Positions 1,057 through 4,845 of a stretch of DNA of 7,785 nucleotides are shown here, one piece after another. The notes under the pieces are model-generated. The model ran no database searches and was not told where the DNA came from. It worked only from the letters and a program-made list of their open reading frames with translations. Source of the stretch: Syntrophobacterales bacterium. Its GTDB lineage: Bacteria; Desulfobacterota; Syntrophobacteria; BM002. The stretch spans positions 1 through 7,785 of the forward strand of contig JAUWKY010000099.1 in assembly GCA_030613915.1 (NCBI GenBank). Direction: 5' to 3'. The position numbers and the translations under genes were made by a program. Position 1 is the stretch's first letter, and each line of letters opens with the position of its first letter.

Positions 1057-1085
1057 TTGACAAAATTAGCACTTGTCGCTATTAT
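1057..1085 (+). promoter_or_regulatory. Sigma70-type promoter for the fur-feo locus
   Basis: TTGACA at 1057-1062 and TATTAT at 1080-1085 are separated by exactly 17 bases and match the sigma70 consensus at 11 of 12 positions. The expected transcript start is near 1092, leaving a leader of about 20 bases before the fur ATG at 1113. It is the only strong promoter seen ahead of the iron genes, which suggests that fur, fur-feoA, feoA and feoB can be transcribed from here. Confidence 0.7.
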
Positions 1086-1104
1086 CGCAATTCGTTCGCA
1101 ATAA
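1082..1104. promoter_or_regulatory. Candidate Fur operator over the -10 and start site
   Basis: An imperfect dyad, centred on 1093, runs from TTATCGCAA to TTCGCAATAA; 7 of 11 half-site positions agree. It also contains TCGCAAT as a direct repeat at 1085 and 1096, 11 bases apart. It covers the -10 box and likely transcript start, where an autoregulatory repressor would bind. It does not match the E. coli Fur box well, so the assignment is inference from position and symmetry. Confidence 0.35.
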
Positions 1105-1112
1105 GGATCCAC

Positions 1113-1547
1113 ATGAAAAGTGAAATTGAGGTATTCAGAGAATTTATTCGCAATAAGGGATTGAGAAAAACACCCGAGCGTGAACAGGTTGTCAGGGCGG
1201 TATTCGCCATCCATGATCATTTTGACGTGGATGAACTTTACGTGCTACTCCGGGGTCAGAACGAGAAAATCTCCAAAGCCACGATTTACCGTACCATTCC
1301 CCTGCTGCTTGAGAGCGGCCTCATCCAGGAAGCCTACTTCGAGGATGGGCATCTGCACTACGAACATATCTATGGGCATGAACACCACTGCCACCTTCGT
1401 TGTCTAGATTGTGGCAAGGTGGTGGAATTTACCGAAGAAATTGTCAAGGATGTAGAGGGGAAGGTTGGGGAAATTTACGATTTTCTCGTAACTGGACACA
1501 AACTCGAAGTGTATGGTCATTGTGGCAAGTGTAAGGTGCACAAGTGA
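1113..1547 (+). CDS. fur: Fur-family ferric uptake regulator (Fur-1)
   Basis: A 144-residue protein of ordinary Fur length. Residues 1-85 form the winged-helix DNA-binding half with a canonical recognition helix (KATIYRTIPLLLESG, 55-69); residues 86-144 are the dimerisation and metal-binding half. Both structural zinc pairs are present (C97/C100 and C137/C140), as is H129. The usual HHDH motif reads H91-H92-C93-H94: a Cys replaces the Asp that serves as a metal ligand in E. coli Fur. ATG 1113 is chosen because AAGGA at 1103-1107 lies 5 bases upstream and residues from there align with the family; the in-frame TTG at 993 would place 40 residues across a repeat array and the promoter. It is the first gene of the locus and probably represses it when iron is replete. 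PerR, Zur or another metal specificity cannot be excluded by sequence, but linkage to feoAB favours iron. Confidence 0.9.
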   Translation: MKSEIEVFREFIRNKGLRKTPEREQVVRAVFAIHDHFDVDELYVLLRGQNEKISKATIYRTIPLLLESGLIQEAYFEDGHLHYEHIYGHEHHCHLRCLDCGKVVEFTEEIVKDVEGKVGEIYDFLVTGHKLEVYGHCGKCKVHK

Positions 1548-1621: not shown

Positions 1622-2320
1622 ATGGAACGCCTACACCAATACGAGAGAGATGAATTCATCAACATCTGCAAAGAGCATGGTCTGAACTATAGCGATAAGC
1701 GGTTGCTGGTGCTCGAGGCATTCTTGGGGACAACACAGCATCTCACTATTGCTGCTCTCCAGGAGCACCTCGAGAGCCAAGGCCAGCGCTTGGCCAGTGA
1801 CTTCATTGGCGAGACCTTGGATCTTCTCTGCCGCTATGGATATGCTTCCAAAAAGGAATTTGAGGGCCAGGAAATCCAATATGAACATCGTCACATCGGC
1901 TGGCACCATGACCATTTAATTTGCGCCGACTGCGGTAGAATTCAGGAGTTCCACAATAAAGAAATTGAAGCATTGCAGCGACAAATCGCCCAGGATAGGT
2001 ATTTTACCTTGCTGCATCATAACATGGAACTCTACGGCATTTGTGGAGAGTGCCGGAAACAGCGGCGGCCCGGTATTCCTTTATCTTTTGTGCTTCCCGG
2101 AGAGGAAGTAGTTATTGAGCGATTGCTTGGTGGGAAACAGGTCCAGCAGCGATTGGCTGACATGGGACTCACCCCCGGAACAGCTATAGAAGTTATCAAG
2201 GCAAGCGGACCCGGCCCTATCATCGTTGCCTTCCGAGGTAGCAGAATCGCCCTGGGACAAGGCCTCAGCCAGAAAGTGCTCGTCTCTACCAACAACAACC
2301 CCGCCAAAGACATTGGCTGA
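1622..2320 (+). CDS. Fur-family protein fused to a C-terminal FeoA domain
   Basis: A single uninterrupted frame of 232 residues. Residues 1-145 are a Fur-type protein: winged-helix half, then H95-H96-D97-H98, E109, H133 and two CxxC pairs (C101/C104, C141/C144). After a short Arg/Pro linker (about 146-152), residues 153-222 form a complete FeoA (SH3-like) domain with PLSFVLPGEE, RLADMGLTPGT and RGSRIALGQGLSQKVLV. The recognition helix is unlike Fur: where Fur-1 has ATIYRT, this protein has DFIGET (60-65), losing the conserved Tyr and Arg. FeoA is normally a separate cytoplasmic partner of FeoB; DtxR-family iron repressors also carry a C-terminal SH3/FeoA-like domain, but on a different DNA-binding scaffold. 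An in-frame TAA at 1604-1606 makes ATG 1622 the first start; GAGG at 1614-1617 or AAGGGA at 1605-1610 may serve as ribosome site. It begins 74 bases after fur. Inferred role: an iron-sensing regulator of feo expression or of FeoB itself. Confidence 0.88.
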   Translation: MERLHQYERDEFINICKEHGLNYSDKRLLVLEAFLGTTQHLTIAALQEHLESQGQRLASDFIGETLDLLCRYGYASKKEFEGQEIQYEHRHIGWHHDHLICADCGRIQEFHNKEIEALQRQIAQDRYFTLLHHNMELYGICGECRKQRRPGIPLSFVLPGEEVVIERLLGGKQVQQRLADMGLTPGTAIEVIKASGPGPIIVAFRGSRIALGQGLSQKVLVSTNNNPAKDIG

Positions 2321-2414: not shown

Positions 2415-2422
2415 CTATGTTG

Positions 2423-2665
2423 ATGATTCCATTGAGTGAGTTCAGAGAAGGTGAGCGCGGTATCATCACACGATTGAACGGCAGGGGCACCTTTCGCAAG
2501 CGACTACAGGAGATGGGCTTTATCAGGGGATCTGAGGTGTTCGTTGAAAAATATGCTCCTCTTCGAGATCCGATTGAACTGGTGATCAAAGGCTACCACG
2601 TGTCGCTGCGGGTGGAAGAAGCGGCCCAGATAATGATGGAAAAACTGGAGCAAAAACAAGAGTGA
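2423..2665 (+). CDS. feoA: Ferrous iron transport protein A
   Basis: An 80-residue stand-alone FeoA, the usual length for this small SH3-like cytoplasmic protein that supports FeoB-driven Fe(II) uptake. Family features in order are MIPLSEFREGERG at the start, the RLQEMGFIRGSEV turn, and a C-terminal strand with VSLRVEEAAQIMM. It differs clearly from the FeoA domain fused to Fur upstream, which has GPGP and RGSR motifs, so the locus carries two distinct FeoA units. An alternative ATG at 2417 would add two residues. The stop TGA (2663-2665) overlaps the GTG start of feoB (2662-2664), implying translational coupling. The 102-base gap before it has no convincing promoter; TTATTCGC at 2396-2403 repeats a half-site word also found at 1144-1151 in the fur region. 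Confidence 0.93.
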   Translation: MIPLSEFREGERGIITRLNGRGTFRKRLQEMGFIRGSEVFVEKYAPLRDPIELVIKGYHVSLRVEEAAQIMMEKLEQKQE

Positions 2666-4845
2666 AGAAAGAAGCCATTACTATTGCCCTGACCGGCAAC
2701 CCGAACTCTGGGAAGACTACCATCTTTAATAATCTTACAGGTACTCGCCAGCATGTGGGAAACTGGCCGGGGGTGACGGTCGAGAAGAAGATGGGGACCG
2801 TGATCCATAACGGCCACCGATTGCAGGTGGTTGATCTGCCGGGGACCTACAGCCTGACCGCATATTCCATCGAGGAAATCGTGGCCCGCCGTTTTCTGGT
2901 TGACTCGAAACCGGATGTGGTTGTGGATATTGTCGATGCCTCCAATCTGGAGAGAAATCTCTACCTCGCCACCCAGCTTATAGAGATGGGGGTAAAGCTT
3001 ATTCTTGCCCTTAACATGGCTGATGTGGCACAGGCGCGCGGCCACGAGATTGACGCTGACAGTCTGGGTACTCTGTTGGGTGTGCCTGTGGTTTTCACTA
3101 TCGGTACCAAGAATCAGGGGATGAAGGAATTACTGGACAAAGTGGTGGAAGTGGTCGAAGACCGGGATACGGTGAGCCGGCACATCCACATTTCCTACGG
3201 CCACGAACTTGAGAAGGAAATAAAGAAGATCCAGGACGTTATCTGGAGGGATCCCTCAATTGGTGAACGCTTTTCAACCCGCTGGCTGGCCGTGAAACTG
3301 TTGGAAAATGATGCAGCCGTGCAGGAGAGGGTAGGATCGCTCGGGGAGATCGGCAAACAAATTTTGGCTCAAGCTGAGGCGAGTCGCGAACGGTTGGCTG
3401 AGTTTTATAAAGACGACGCTGAAATGGTGCTCACCGATCAGCGCTATGGCTTTATTGGGGGGGCTCTCAAGGAGGTCCTTAAAGTCTCCGCCAAAAGCAA
3501 ACTTGATCTCTCCAGGCAGGTCGACCTGGTACTTACCAATAGGATTCTGGGTTTTCCCGTTTTCATCTTTTTTATCTGGGCTATGTTTCAGCTGACCTTT
3601 ACTGTTGGAGCCTATCCCATGGAATGGATAGACGCCGGGGTGAGCTTGCTTGGAGCCGTTGTGACTGCCCTGCTGCCGGCGGGACTCCTACAGGACCTGC
3701 TGGTTAACGGCATAATCGCCGGCGTGGGTAGTGTCATCATTTTCTTGCCCAACATTTTGATTCTCTTTTTCTGTATTGCCGTGTTTGAGGATACCGGCTA
3801 CCTGGCGAGAGCCGCCTTTATCATGGACAGGGTAATGCACGTCATTGGGCTGCACGGCAAGGCGTTTATTCCCTTGCTCATGGGTTTTGGCTGCAATGTC
3901 CCGGCGATCATGGCTACGCGCACCCTCGAAAGCGAACGTGATCGGTTGCTAAGCATCCTGATCAACCCGCTGATCAGTTGCTCAGCCCGATTACCAGTAT
4001 ATATACTGCTGGCGGGAACATTTTTCGGAGCCAGTGCCGGCAACGTCATTTTCAGCATCTATGCTCTCGGCATTGCCCTGGCCATAGCCATGGGCAAGCT
4101 CTTCAGTGTCACTCTTTTCCGGGGTGACATAGCTCCCTTCGTAATGGAACTTCCCCCCTATCGAGCCCCTACATTGAAGAGCTTGTCGATTCACATGTGG
4201 GATCGTAGCCAGGTTTTCTTACGCAAAATGAGTGGGGTGATCCTGGTTGGCTCTATCTTGGTCTGGGTCCTCGGCAGCTTCCCCCGTAGCCCCGATCTGC
4301 ACCGGGGGCAGGCTGTGGAGAGAGGGGTTACGAGTGCCACCCAGGAAAGGGTGCTCACCGTTACTGAATCACAACAGCCAGTGTCGCCGGCGGTGACGGT
4401 TAATAATCTGAAGAATTCAGATCCGGACAATGAACTGGCTAGGCTGGAAAGCAGCTTTCTCGGGCGCTTGGGCCATTTAATTCAGCCAATCTTTGCCCCC
4501 TTGGGTTTTGACTGGCGAACGAGTGTGGCCGTGCTCACGGGATTTGTGGCAAAAGAGATTGTGGTGAGCACTCTCGGAGTATTGTATGCAGCCGGAGCGG
4601 ATGTAAACGAGGAGAGTGAAGCATTGCGTCGGTCCTTGCGGACCTCAGGGATAACACCCCTTGGGGCATACGCGCTCATGGCTTTCGTGCTCATCTATAT
4701 TCCGTGTTTGGCTACGGTGGCAGTGATTCGGCGCGAGACTAATTCCTGGAAGTGGACCGGGCTCAGCATTAGCTATTCCCTGGTCCTGGCATGGGTGGTC
4801 TCCTTCCTGATCTACCAAGGCGGGAGGATTATTGGACTAGGATAG
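2662..4845 (+). CDS. feoB: Ferrous iron transporter FeoB (GTPase-linked permease)
   Basis: A 727-residue inner-membrane Fe(II) importer. The N-terminal G domain shows G1 GNPNSGKTT (12-20), the G2-region GVTVEKK (37-43), G3 DLPG (58-61) and G4 NMAD (118-121), followed by a helical soluble domain to about 280. The first membrane segment starts near residue 294 (RILGFPVFIFF). Gate motif one has GFGCNVPAIMATR (C411) followed by SCSARLPVY (C440); gate motif two is GFVAKEIVVST (627 on); a late conserved Cys is C682 in IPCLATVAVI. Length and motif order indicate an intact gene. A polar, Ser/Thr/Asn-rich loop of about 50 residues (roughly 541-592) lies between membrane segments before LGHLIQPIFAPLGFDW. 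Translation starts at GTG 2662, overlapping feoA by 4 bases. No feoC-like gene follows; the next 203 bases are repeats. Confidence 0.97.
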   Translation: MKKEAITIALTGNPNSGKTTIFNNLTGTRQHVGNWPGVTVEKKMGTVIHNGHRLQVVDLPGTYSLTAYSIEEIVARRFLVDSKPDVVVDIVDASNLERNLYLATQLIEMGVKLILALNMADVAQARGHEIDADSLGTLLGVPVVFTIGTKNQGMKELLDKVVEVVEDRDTVSRHIHISYGHELEKEIKKIQDVIWRDPSIGERFSTRWLAVKLLENDAAVQERVGSLGEIGKQILAQAEASRERLAEFYKDDAEMVLTDQRYGFIGGALKEVLKVSAKSKLDLSRQVDLVLTNRILGFPVFIFFIWAMFQLTFTVGAYPMEWIDAGVSLLGAVVTALLPAGLLQDLLVNGIIAGVGSVIIFLPNILILFFCIAVFEDTGYLARAAFIMDRVMHVIGLHGKAFIPLLMGFGCNVPAIMATRTLESERDRLLSILINPLISCSARLPVYILLAGTFFGASAGNVIFSIYALGIALAIAMGKLFSVTLFRGDIAPFVMELPPYRAPTLKSLSIHMWDRSQVFLRKMSGVILVGSILVWVLGSFPRSPDLHRGQAVERGVTSATQERVLTVTESQQPVSPAVTVNNLKNSDPDNELARLESSFLGRLGHLIQPIFAPLGFDWRTSVAVLTGFVAKEIVVSTLGVLYAAGADVNEESEALRRSLRTSGITPLGAYALMAFVLIYIPCLATVAVIRRETNSWKWTGLSISYSLVLAWVVSFLIYQGGRIIGLG

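Follow-up and report, generated by a model that had tools for sequence, protein, structure and literature searches.

The stretch of DNA analyzed here, in the following called the window, is 7,785 nucleotides long and comes from a Syntrophobacterales bacterium (GenBank assembly GCA_030613915.1, contig JAUWKY010000099.1). It constitutes an entire contig of a draft genome of 2.25 Mb that is 79% complete. The genes fur, fur-feoA, feoA, and feoB were found in this order, all on the plus strand (Table 1). The subject of this work is fur-feoA, which encodes a protein of 232 amino acids, translated without internal stops, that joins a Fur domain to a FeoA domain and is predicted not to bind DNA.

The FUR domain of the fusion matched PF01475 with 81.5 bits (cut-off 23.1) over profile positions 2-121 of 121, and its FeoA domain matched PF04023 with 70.6 bits (cut-off 23.0) over positions 1-73 of 74. 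A preliminary description of the window had claimed that one frame of a feo locus encodes complete FUR and FeoA domains, which is borne out by the frame, the Pfam coverage, and the flanking genes. Its wording of a full Fur-type protein holds for the coverage of the FUR domain; the altered recognition helix, in which Gly63 and Glu64 align with Tyr56 and Arg57 of Magnetospirillum Fur, had gone unnoticed. With the NCBIfam models, P0001 stayed below every curated cut-off. Matches of 73 members of set A2, for which cut-offs were given for P0001 alone, were most often to Fur, PerR, and Zur models and came from 13 families, five of them with a single-member match and two of those five transposases.

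Table 1. Features of the fur-feoA locus, in window coordinates.
Feature	Position	Strand	Basis
fur-feoA fusion gene	1622..2320	+	Open frame; FUR and FeoA Pfam domains both above cut-off
FUR domain, residues 19-138 of the fusion	1676..2035	+	Pfam PF01475
Former DNA-recognition helix alpha4 of the fusion, residues 59-71	1796..1834	+	Helix in structure model; alignments
FeoA domain "type 1," residues 152-222 of the fusion	2075..2287	+	Pfam PF04023
Companion fur, canonical DNA-contact residues (KATIYRT)	1113..1547	+	PF01475; Tyr and Arg present
Predicted Fur operator ATCGCAATTCGTTCGCAAT	1084..1102	+	De novo palindromic motif ATTGAnAnTnAnTnTCAAT, 18.7 bits; 10 nt upstream of companion fur start
Stand-alone feoA, "type 2"	2417..2665	+	PF04023, 73.3 bits; type by motif
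feoB, start overlapping the feoA end	2662..4845	+	TIGR00437, 652.2 bits (cut-off 315.65)

A protein search found 316 relatives, of which the best 120 were listed and the best 97 (P0002-P0098) were taken as the fusion set. Both Pfam domains were present in all of these 97 except P0038, which is shorter and has FUR alone. Full-length fusions were found at six loci (L003-L008) in six assemblies named Desulfobacteraceae, Desulfobacterota, Syntrophobacterales, or Deltaproteobacteria; of the other two loci of this named-assembly set, L009 was a fragment and L010 matched in the Fur part alone. When divergent members were used as queries in another protein search, at least 53 fusion clusters came up, some of which coincide with genes of the loci examined in this work, under names that include Desulforegulaceae, Desulfobacteraceae, and Candidatus Adiutrix. 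Among the matches listed for a profile of 24 fusions run against 395 genomes of the phylum, both domains were matched (E ≤1.8e-51) in at least 68 genomes, including that of the window and G007, from at least 28 family codes of the one phylum. Of the 12 genomes that share the window's family code, 11 have the fusion, the window's own included; the remaining one (G006, 87% complete on one contig) lacked the fusion and gave no FeoB match below E 4.8e-6. Internal stops were flagged in six of the 68 matches (G410, G127, G280, G205:C16, G404, and G252); their loci (L080, L098, L105, L110, L118, and L119) each held one open reading frame (ORF) with both domains. Separate fur and feoA frames in relatives, or a restriction to one contig, would according to the preliminary description have spoken against a true fusion; we checked for both and found the fusion to recur in at least 68 of the 395 genomes. 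An assembly or sequencing error fusing two genes is ruled out by the 97 and the at least 53 clusters, the six named assemblies, and the at least 68 genomes. Genome G002 was found to have a second copy at L150, an extra pair of companion fur and fusion without feoB that is very similar to L151; the match there covers residues 1-217.

We examined 91 loci, 79 of which hold one fusion ORF each. The unfused comparison set consisted of 46 Fur proteins from the same 91 loci, i.e., 34 fusion companions, 11 from fusion-free loci, and one other fragment. The metal sensor half was found completely conserved at the Cys4 zinc site and at His33, Glu81, His88, Asp89, His90, and Glu101 in all 79 fusions, and the window fusion has all four zinc cysteines and every regulatory metal ligand. 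By its Pfam domain, zinc site, and metal ligands the window protein belongs by descent to the FUR superfamily. The position of the site-2 ligand Asp89 is occupied by Cys in 34 of the 46 unfused Furs, the window companion among them.

According to the passages on these residues in PMC4506495, Lys15, Tyr56, and Arg57 of Magnetospirillum Fur recognise DNA; the Y56A mutant gave a very weak DNA signal, R57A none that was detectable, and K15A bound DNA about tenfold more weakly (977 vs. 85 nM). The window fusion has Asn22, Gly63, and Glu64 at these positions. None of the 79 fusions has the Tyr, which is present in all 46 unfused Furs. The Arg was found in one fusion only (L103), with Lys in four others, compared to all 46 unfused Furs. 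Lys or Arg occupied the Lys15 position in three of the 79 fusions vs. 44 of the 46 unfused Furs, and 49 of the fusions have Asp or Asn there. The 98 proteins made up of the window and the 97 clusters had Tyr56 in no case and Arg57 in two, and the same numbers were found for the at least 53 further clusters; the three sets overlap in part. In 88 unfused database Furs the Tyr position held Tyr (84) or Phe (4) and the Arg position Arg (85) or Asn (3). The Arg is therefore not universal in unfused Furs, but the Tyr position is aromatic throughout this set. Judged by the DNA-contact residues tested, the fusion should not bind DNA and is thus not expected to be a Fur repressor.

The surroundings of these residues had changed as well. 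The net charge of the recognition helix averaged -1.32 (SD 1.06) in fusions vs. +2.02 (SD 0.64) in unfused Furs, and that of the winged-helix half -4.48 vs. +1.17. New conservation was found within the altered helix, where 92 of 98 proteins have Phe in place of Thr54 and 77 have Glu in place of Arg57 (Phe61 and Glu64 in window numbering). For the ratio of nonsynonymous to synonymous substitution rates (dN/dS) we used the four close pairs of the window with L003, L005, L006, and L007; averages over 36 pairs were left aside because dS was saturated in many. The winged helix (residues 1-85) had a dN/dS of 0.15-0.22, while the values for the metal half and for FeoA were 0.03-0.06 and 0.13-0.25, respectively. 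The purifying selection in the four close pairs rules out that the winged helix is drifting like a pseudogene. Together with this selection, the conservation of the altered helix is more in line with a new contact face than with decay.

FeoA domains were typed by simple motifs, type 1 by an R-x-A-L-G-like motif near the end and type 2 by an AP-x-x-DP-like motif. The 82 fused FeoA domains comprised 74 of type 1, three of type 2, and five unclassified ones; the three of type 2 are the second FeoA of Fur-FeoA-FeoA proteins. Separate FeoA domains (n = 53) were of type 2 in 39 cases and of type 1 in three, with one carrying both motifs and 10 unclassified. Genome G057 (loci L152 and L042) has FeoA types 1 and 2 as separate genes, which at L152 adjoin an unfused fur that keeps both the Tyr and the Arg. 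From the distribution of types and the separate genes of G057, the fusion seems to occupy the type-1 slot of feo operons. At L097, L128, and L140 Fur and two FeoA domains, type 1 followed by type 2, lie on one chain directly before feoB, and judged by length P0122, P0124-P0126, and P0128 are perhaps built in the same way. FeoA ORFs of 220-224 amino acids, far exceeding a single domain, were seen downstream of feoB in L148 (3154-3828), L153 (6843-7505), and L154 (3335-3997).

For 44 of the 79 fusion ORFs a feoB gene in the same orientation was found at most 3 kb downstream. A separate feoA was also present for 38 of these; in three no further feoA lies within that distance, and the last three have two fused FeoA domains. 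The FeoB model TIGR00437 scored above its cut-off in 361 of the 395 sampled genomes of the phylum and below it in 34. All 68 fusion genomes had a FeoB match with E ≤1e-110 (read by eye; bit scores were listed for part of them), and the co-occurrence of fusion and FeoB had a hypergeometric probability of 0.0012 with kinship ignored, although kinship ought to be taken into account.

In a tree of 145 Fur domains one branch set 78 fusions apart with a Shimodaira-Hasegawa-like approximate likelihood ratio test (SH-aLRT) value of 100. When the DNA-contact stretches were removed and the database Furs dropped (122 rows) the fusion branch retained an SH-aLRT of 94; these Fur-domain trees have few columns and long branches. 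This grouping speaks for a single origin of the fusion. The Fur of L152, from the unfused fur-feoA-feoA-feoB order of G057, shared a long branch with other unfused Furs.

A canonical companion Fur adjoins 34 of the 79 fusions, 25 on the same strand and nine divergently, and none was found within 3 kb for the other 45. The companion Fur of the window, translated from 1110, matched PF01475 with 97.9 bits; its start codon was picked by eye. A match to the E. coli Fur-box consensus was not obtained, the best one upstream in the window being 11 of 19 positions and no better than shuffles. De novo search ahead of the unfused fur genes gave the palindrome ATTGAnAnTnAnTnTCAAT, which we take to resemble a Fur box. 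It scored at least 12 bits in 31 of 40 regions, which were the training sequences themselves and are kin by descent, and its log-likelihood was 268 vs. 31-41 in five shuffled sets that got fewer restarts and rounds. The 40 regions were drawn from 46, with L004, L020, L021, L038, L039, and L150 excluded. The palindrome was found ahead of 28 of the 34 companion-bearing fusions (the loci of four of the remaining six contain no upstream sequence), ahead of five of the 45 companion-free fusions, and at seven further sites elsewhere in 873 kb. It is likely that the companion Fur acts on the operon promoter and Fur-FeoA at the level of the protein. Also ahead of the companion fur, the intergenic positions 943-1035 hold repeated "acaaggta"-like units opposite "taccctgtaccc"-like units (by eye). 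Positions 1-831 on the minus strand are an open-ended frame of 277 amino acids that is membrane-like by eye and had no Pfam or NCBIfam match to E 0.01.

Altogether, we consider it probable that the Fur half, whose metal ligands are kept, has given up the role of a repressor, and that the protein serves the FeoB importer as an accessory subunit that senses iron. Whether this happened to an ancient Fur branch that dropped DNA and became the importer's iron-sensing gate, so that a fold used elsewhere to switch off feo genes would here switch off FeoB itself, with two stacked controls, one on the gene by the companion Fur and one on the protein by Fur-FeoA, we regard as evenly balanced. In the proposed mechanism the Fur half would bind Fe2+ and dimerise like other Furs. 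Binding of Fe2+ would close the Fur dimer and thereby change how FeoA is seated on the FeoB G domain, so that a rise in cytosolic Fe2+ would slow or stop import within the lifetime of the protein. The companion Fur would turn the operon down by transcription via the operator ahead of the companion fur. The former recognition helix, now acidic and with Phe61 and Glu64, may form part of a new protein-protein face. We infer from homeostatic logic alone that the brake would act at high iron. A post-translational, iron-responsive control of FeoB was one of two roles suggested in the preliminary description, and it is the one that the data favour; that it acts on FeoB, and in which direction, is what we infer. 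Each half of the fusion has a precedent, since both FeoA and the winged-helix protein FeoC are partners of FeoB: FeoA of Bacteroides fragilis is described in part of PMC8980893 as stabilising GTP-bound FeoB, and passages on FeoC present it as a winged-helix protein (PMC7762939) reported to shield FeoB from FtsH (PMC10710835).

Several observations weigh against this interpretation. Position 63, adjoining the lost Arg, is basic in 19 of the 79 fusions and position 64 is Lys in four; Arg20 is retained in 58 of the 79, and nine of the 53 further clusters have Lys or Arg at the Lys15 position. In the close pairs the winged helix is under looser constraint than the metal half. No feoB was found within 3 kb of 35 of the 79 fusion ORFs, one of which (L004) is near a contig end, and no metal transporters were among 19 scanned neighbours of nine feoB-free fusion loci. 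Those neighbours included P5C reductase, DNA polymerase III delta, HD, YmdB, RNase Y, and HypD, and three were unmatched; a twentieth protein in the scan was the L122 fusion itself. Co-occurrence with FeoB is weak evidence, since FeoB is so widespread in the phylum. The structure model is a monomer and silent on docking. Finally, the site-2 ligands are not universal: His87 and Glu108 were each present in 65 of the 79 fusions and His125 in 72. All seven losses of His125 and eight of the 14 losses of His87 fell within nine fusions whose companion fur is divergent and which have no feoB closer than 3 kb (L121, L124, L125, L129, L131, L132, L135, L136, and L139), eight of which, all except L135, lack one or both site-2 His ligands. 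His87 is also lost in the FeoB-linked fusion of L140.

The fusion could instead be an anti-repressor that pairs with the companion Fur via the dimerisation domain in a one-armed, non-repressing dimer and is tethered at the membrane by FeoB through FeoA, so that the load of the transporter is reported to transcription. The adjoining canonical Fur of 34 fusions agrees with this, as do the ligands of the metal and dimerisation half retained in companion and fusion alike. However, the 45 fusions without a companion within 3 kb argue against it, and the long branch between companion and fusion Fur domains means that a common dimer interface is not assured. We hold this explanation to be unlikely.

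That the fusion still represses, with a DtxR-like use of its FeoA domain, was the other role suggested in the preliminary description; also with an altered operator, such a role is not supported. Tyr56 was kept in none of the 98 proteins, 79 loci, or 53 clusters, Arg57 is nearly gone, Lys15 is mostly replaced by Asp or Asn, and the helix charge is reversed. A Pfam scan to E 0.01 gave FUR and FeoA alone and no DtxR family. A repressor of this kind is quite unlikely. An iron buffer or chaperone for Fe2+ leaving FeoB, without a regulatory switch, would accommodate lost DNA contacts and retained metal ligands, but a whole winged helix would be superfluous for a mere store, yet it is under purifying selection and has gained conserved residues, which makes this explanation very improbable.

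No description of a Fur-FeoA protein was found among the matches listed in text searches of the literature. Three papers, PMC4506495 among them, matched on strings of the "Fur-feoAB1" type. FeoA with "an additional domain" is mentioned in PMC8749426, where the passage leaves the domain unnamed. As far as the literature listings show, both domains are known, and their combination together with the loss of the DNA contacts is undescribed. By the sequence criteria used, the protein descends from Fur, has the domain of a FeoA, and, at the residues tested, is not a Fur repressor. The role of FeoA for FeoB and the post-translational control of FeoB are described as unsettled in the passages on them in PMC8749426 and PMC8980893, and both could be tested on a naturally occurring FeoA that carries its own iron sensor. 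If the proposed role is true, a Fur-family domain working without DNA would have been retained across at least 28 family codes of one phylum.

Among known systems, Fur of Magnetospirillum gryphiswaldense (PDB 4rb1-4rb3) shares with the fusion the FUR domain, the Cys4 zinc site, the metal ligands, and the predicted fold; the fusion differs in the replacement of Lys15, Tyr56, and Arg57 and in the extra FeoA domain. FeoC, as portrayed in parts of PMC10710835, PMC7762939, and PMC8749426, is likewise a winged-helix protein encoded with FeoB and reported to act on FeoB post-translationally. However, FeoC is about 8 kDa and of the Fe-S cluster type, whereas the fusion is a full Fur with mononuclear metal sites. 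The FeoC family gave no Pfam match to E 0.01 on the fusion, which is a weak test since FeoC is described as poorly conserved in the relevant passage of PMC8749426. DtxR-type repressors, e.g., PgMntR with two FeoA-like domains (as described in part of PMC4805248), also combine a metal sensor with one or more C-terminal FeoA-like domains. They are built on a different scaffold and still bind DNA, while the fusion uses the Fur scaffold with its DNA contacts gone, and no DtxR-type N-terminal domain was found in it by Pfam to E 0.01. The FeoA half has a Pfam domain and, in the structure model, a full SH3-like domain (1.2 Å to 3e19_B), superposing on FeoA (PDB 3e19; B. fragilis 7r7b) with 1.1-1.2 Å over 73-75 residues, from which the fusion differs by bearing an N-terminal Fur domain. 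In FeoAB of B. fragilis, as described in part of PMC8980893, FeoA is covalently attached to another part as well, but there it is attached to FeoB and here to a metal sensor.
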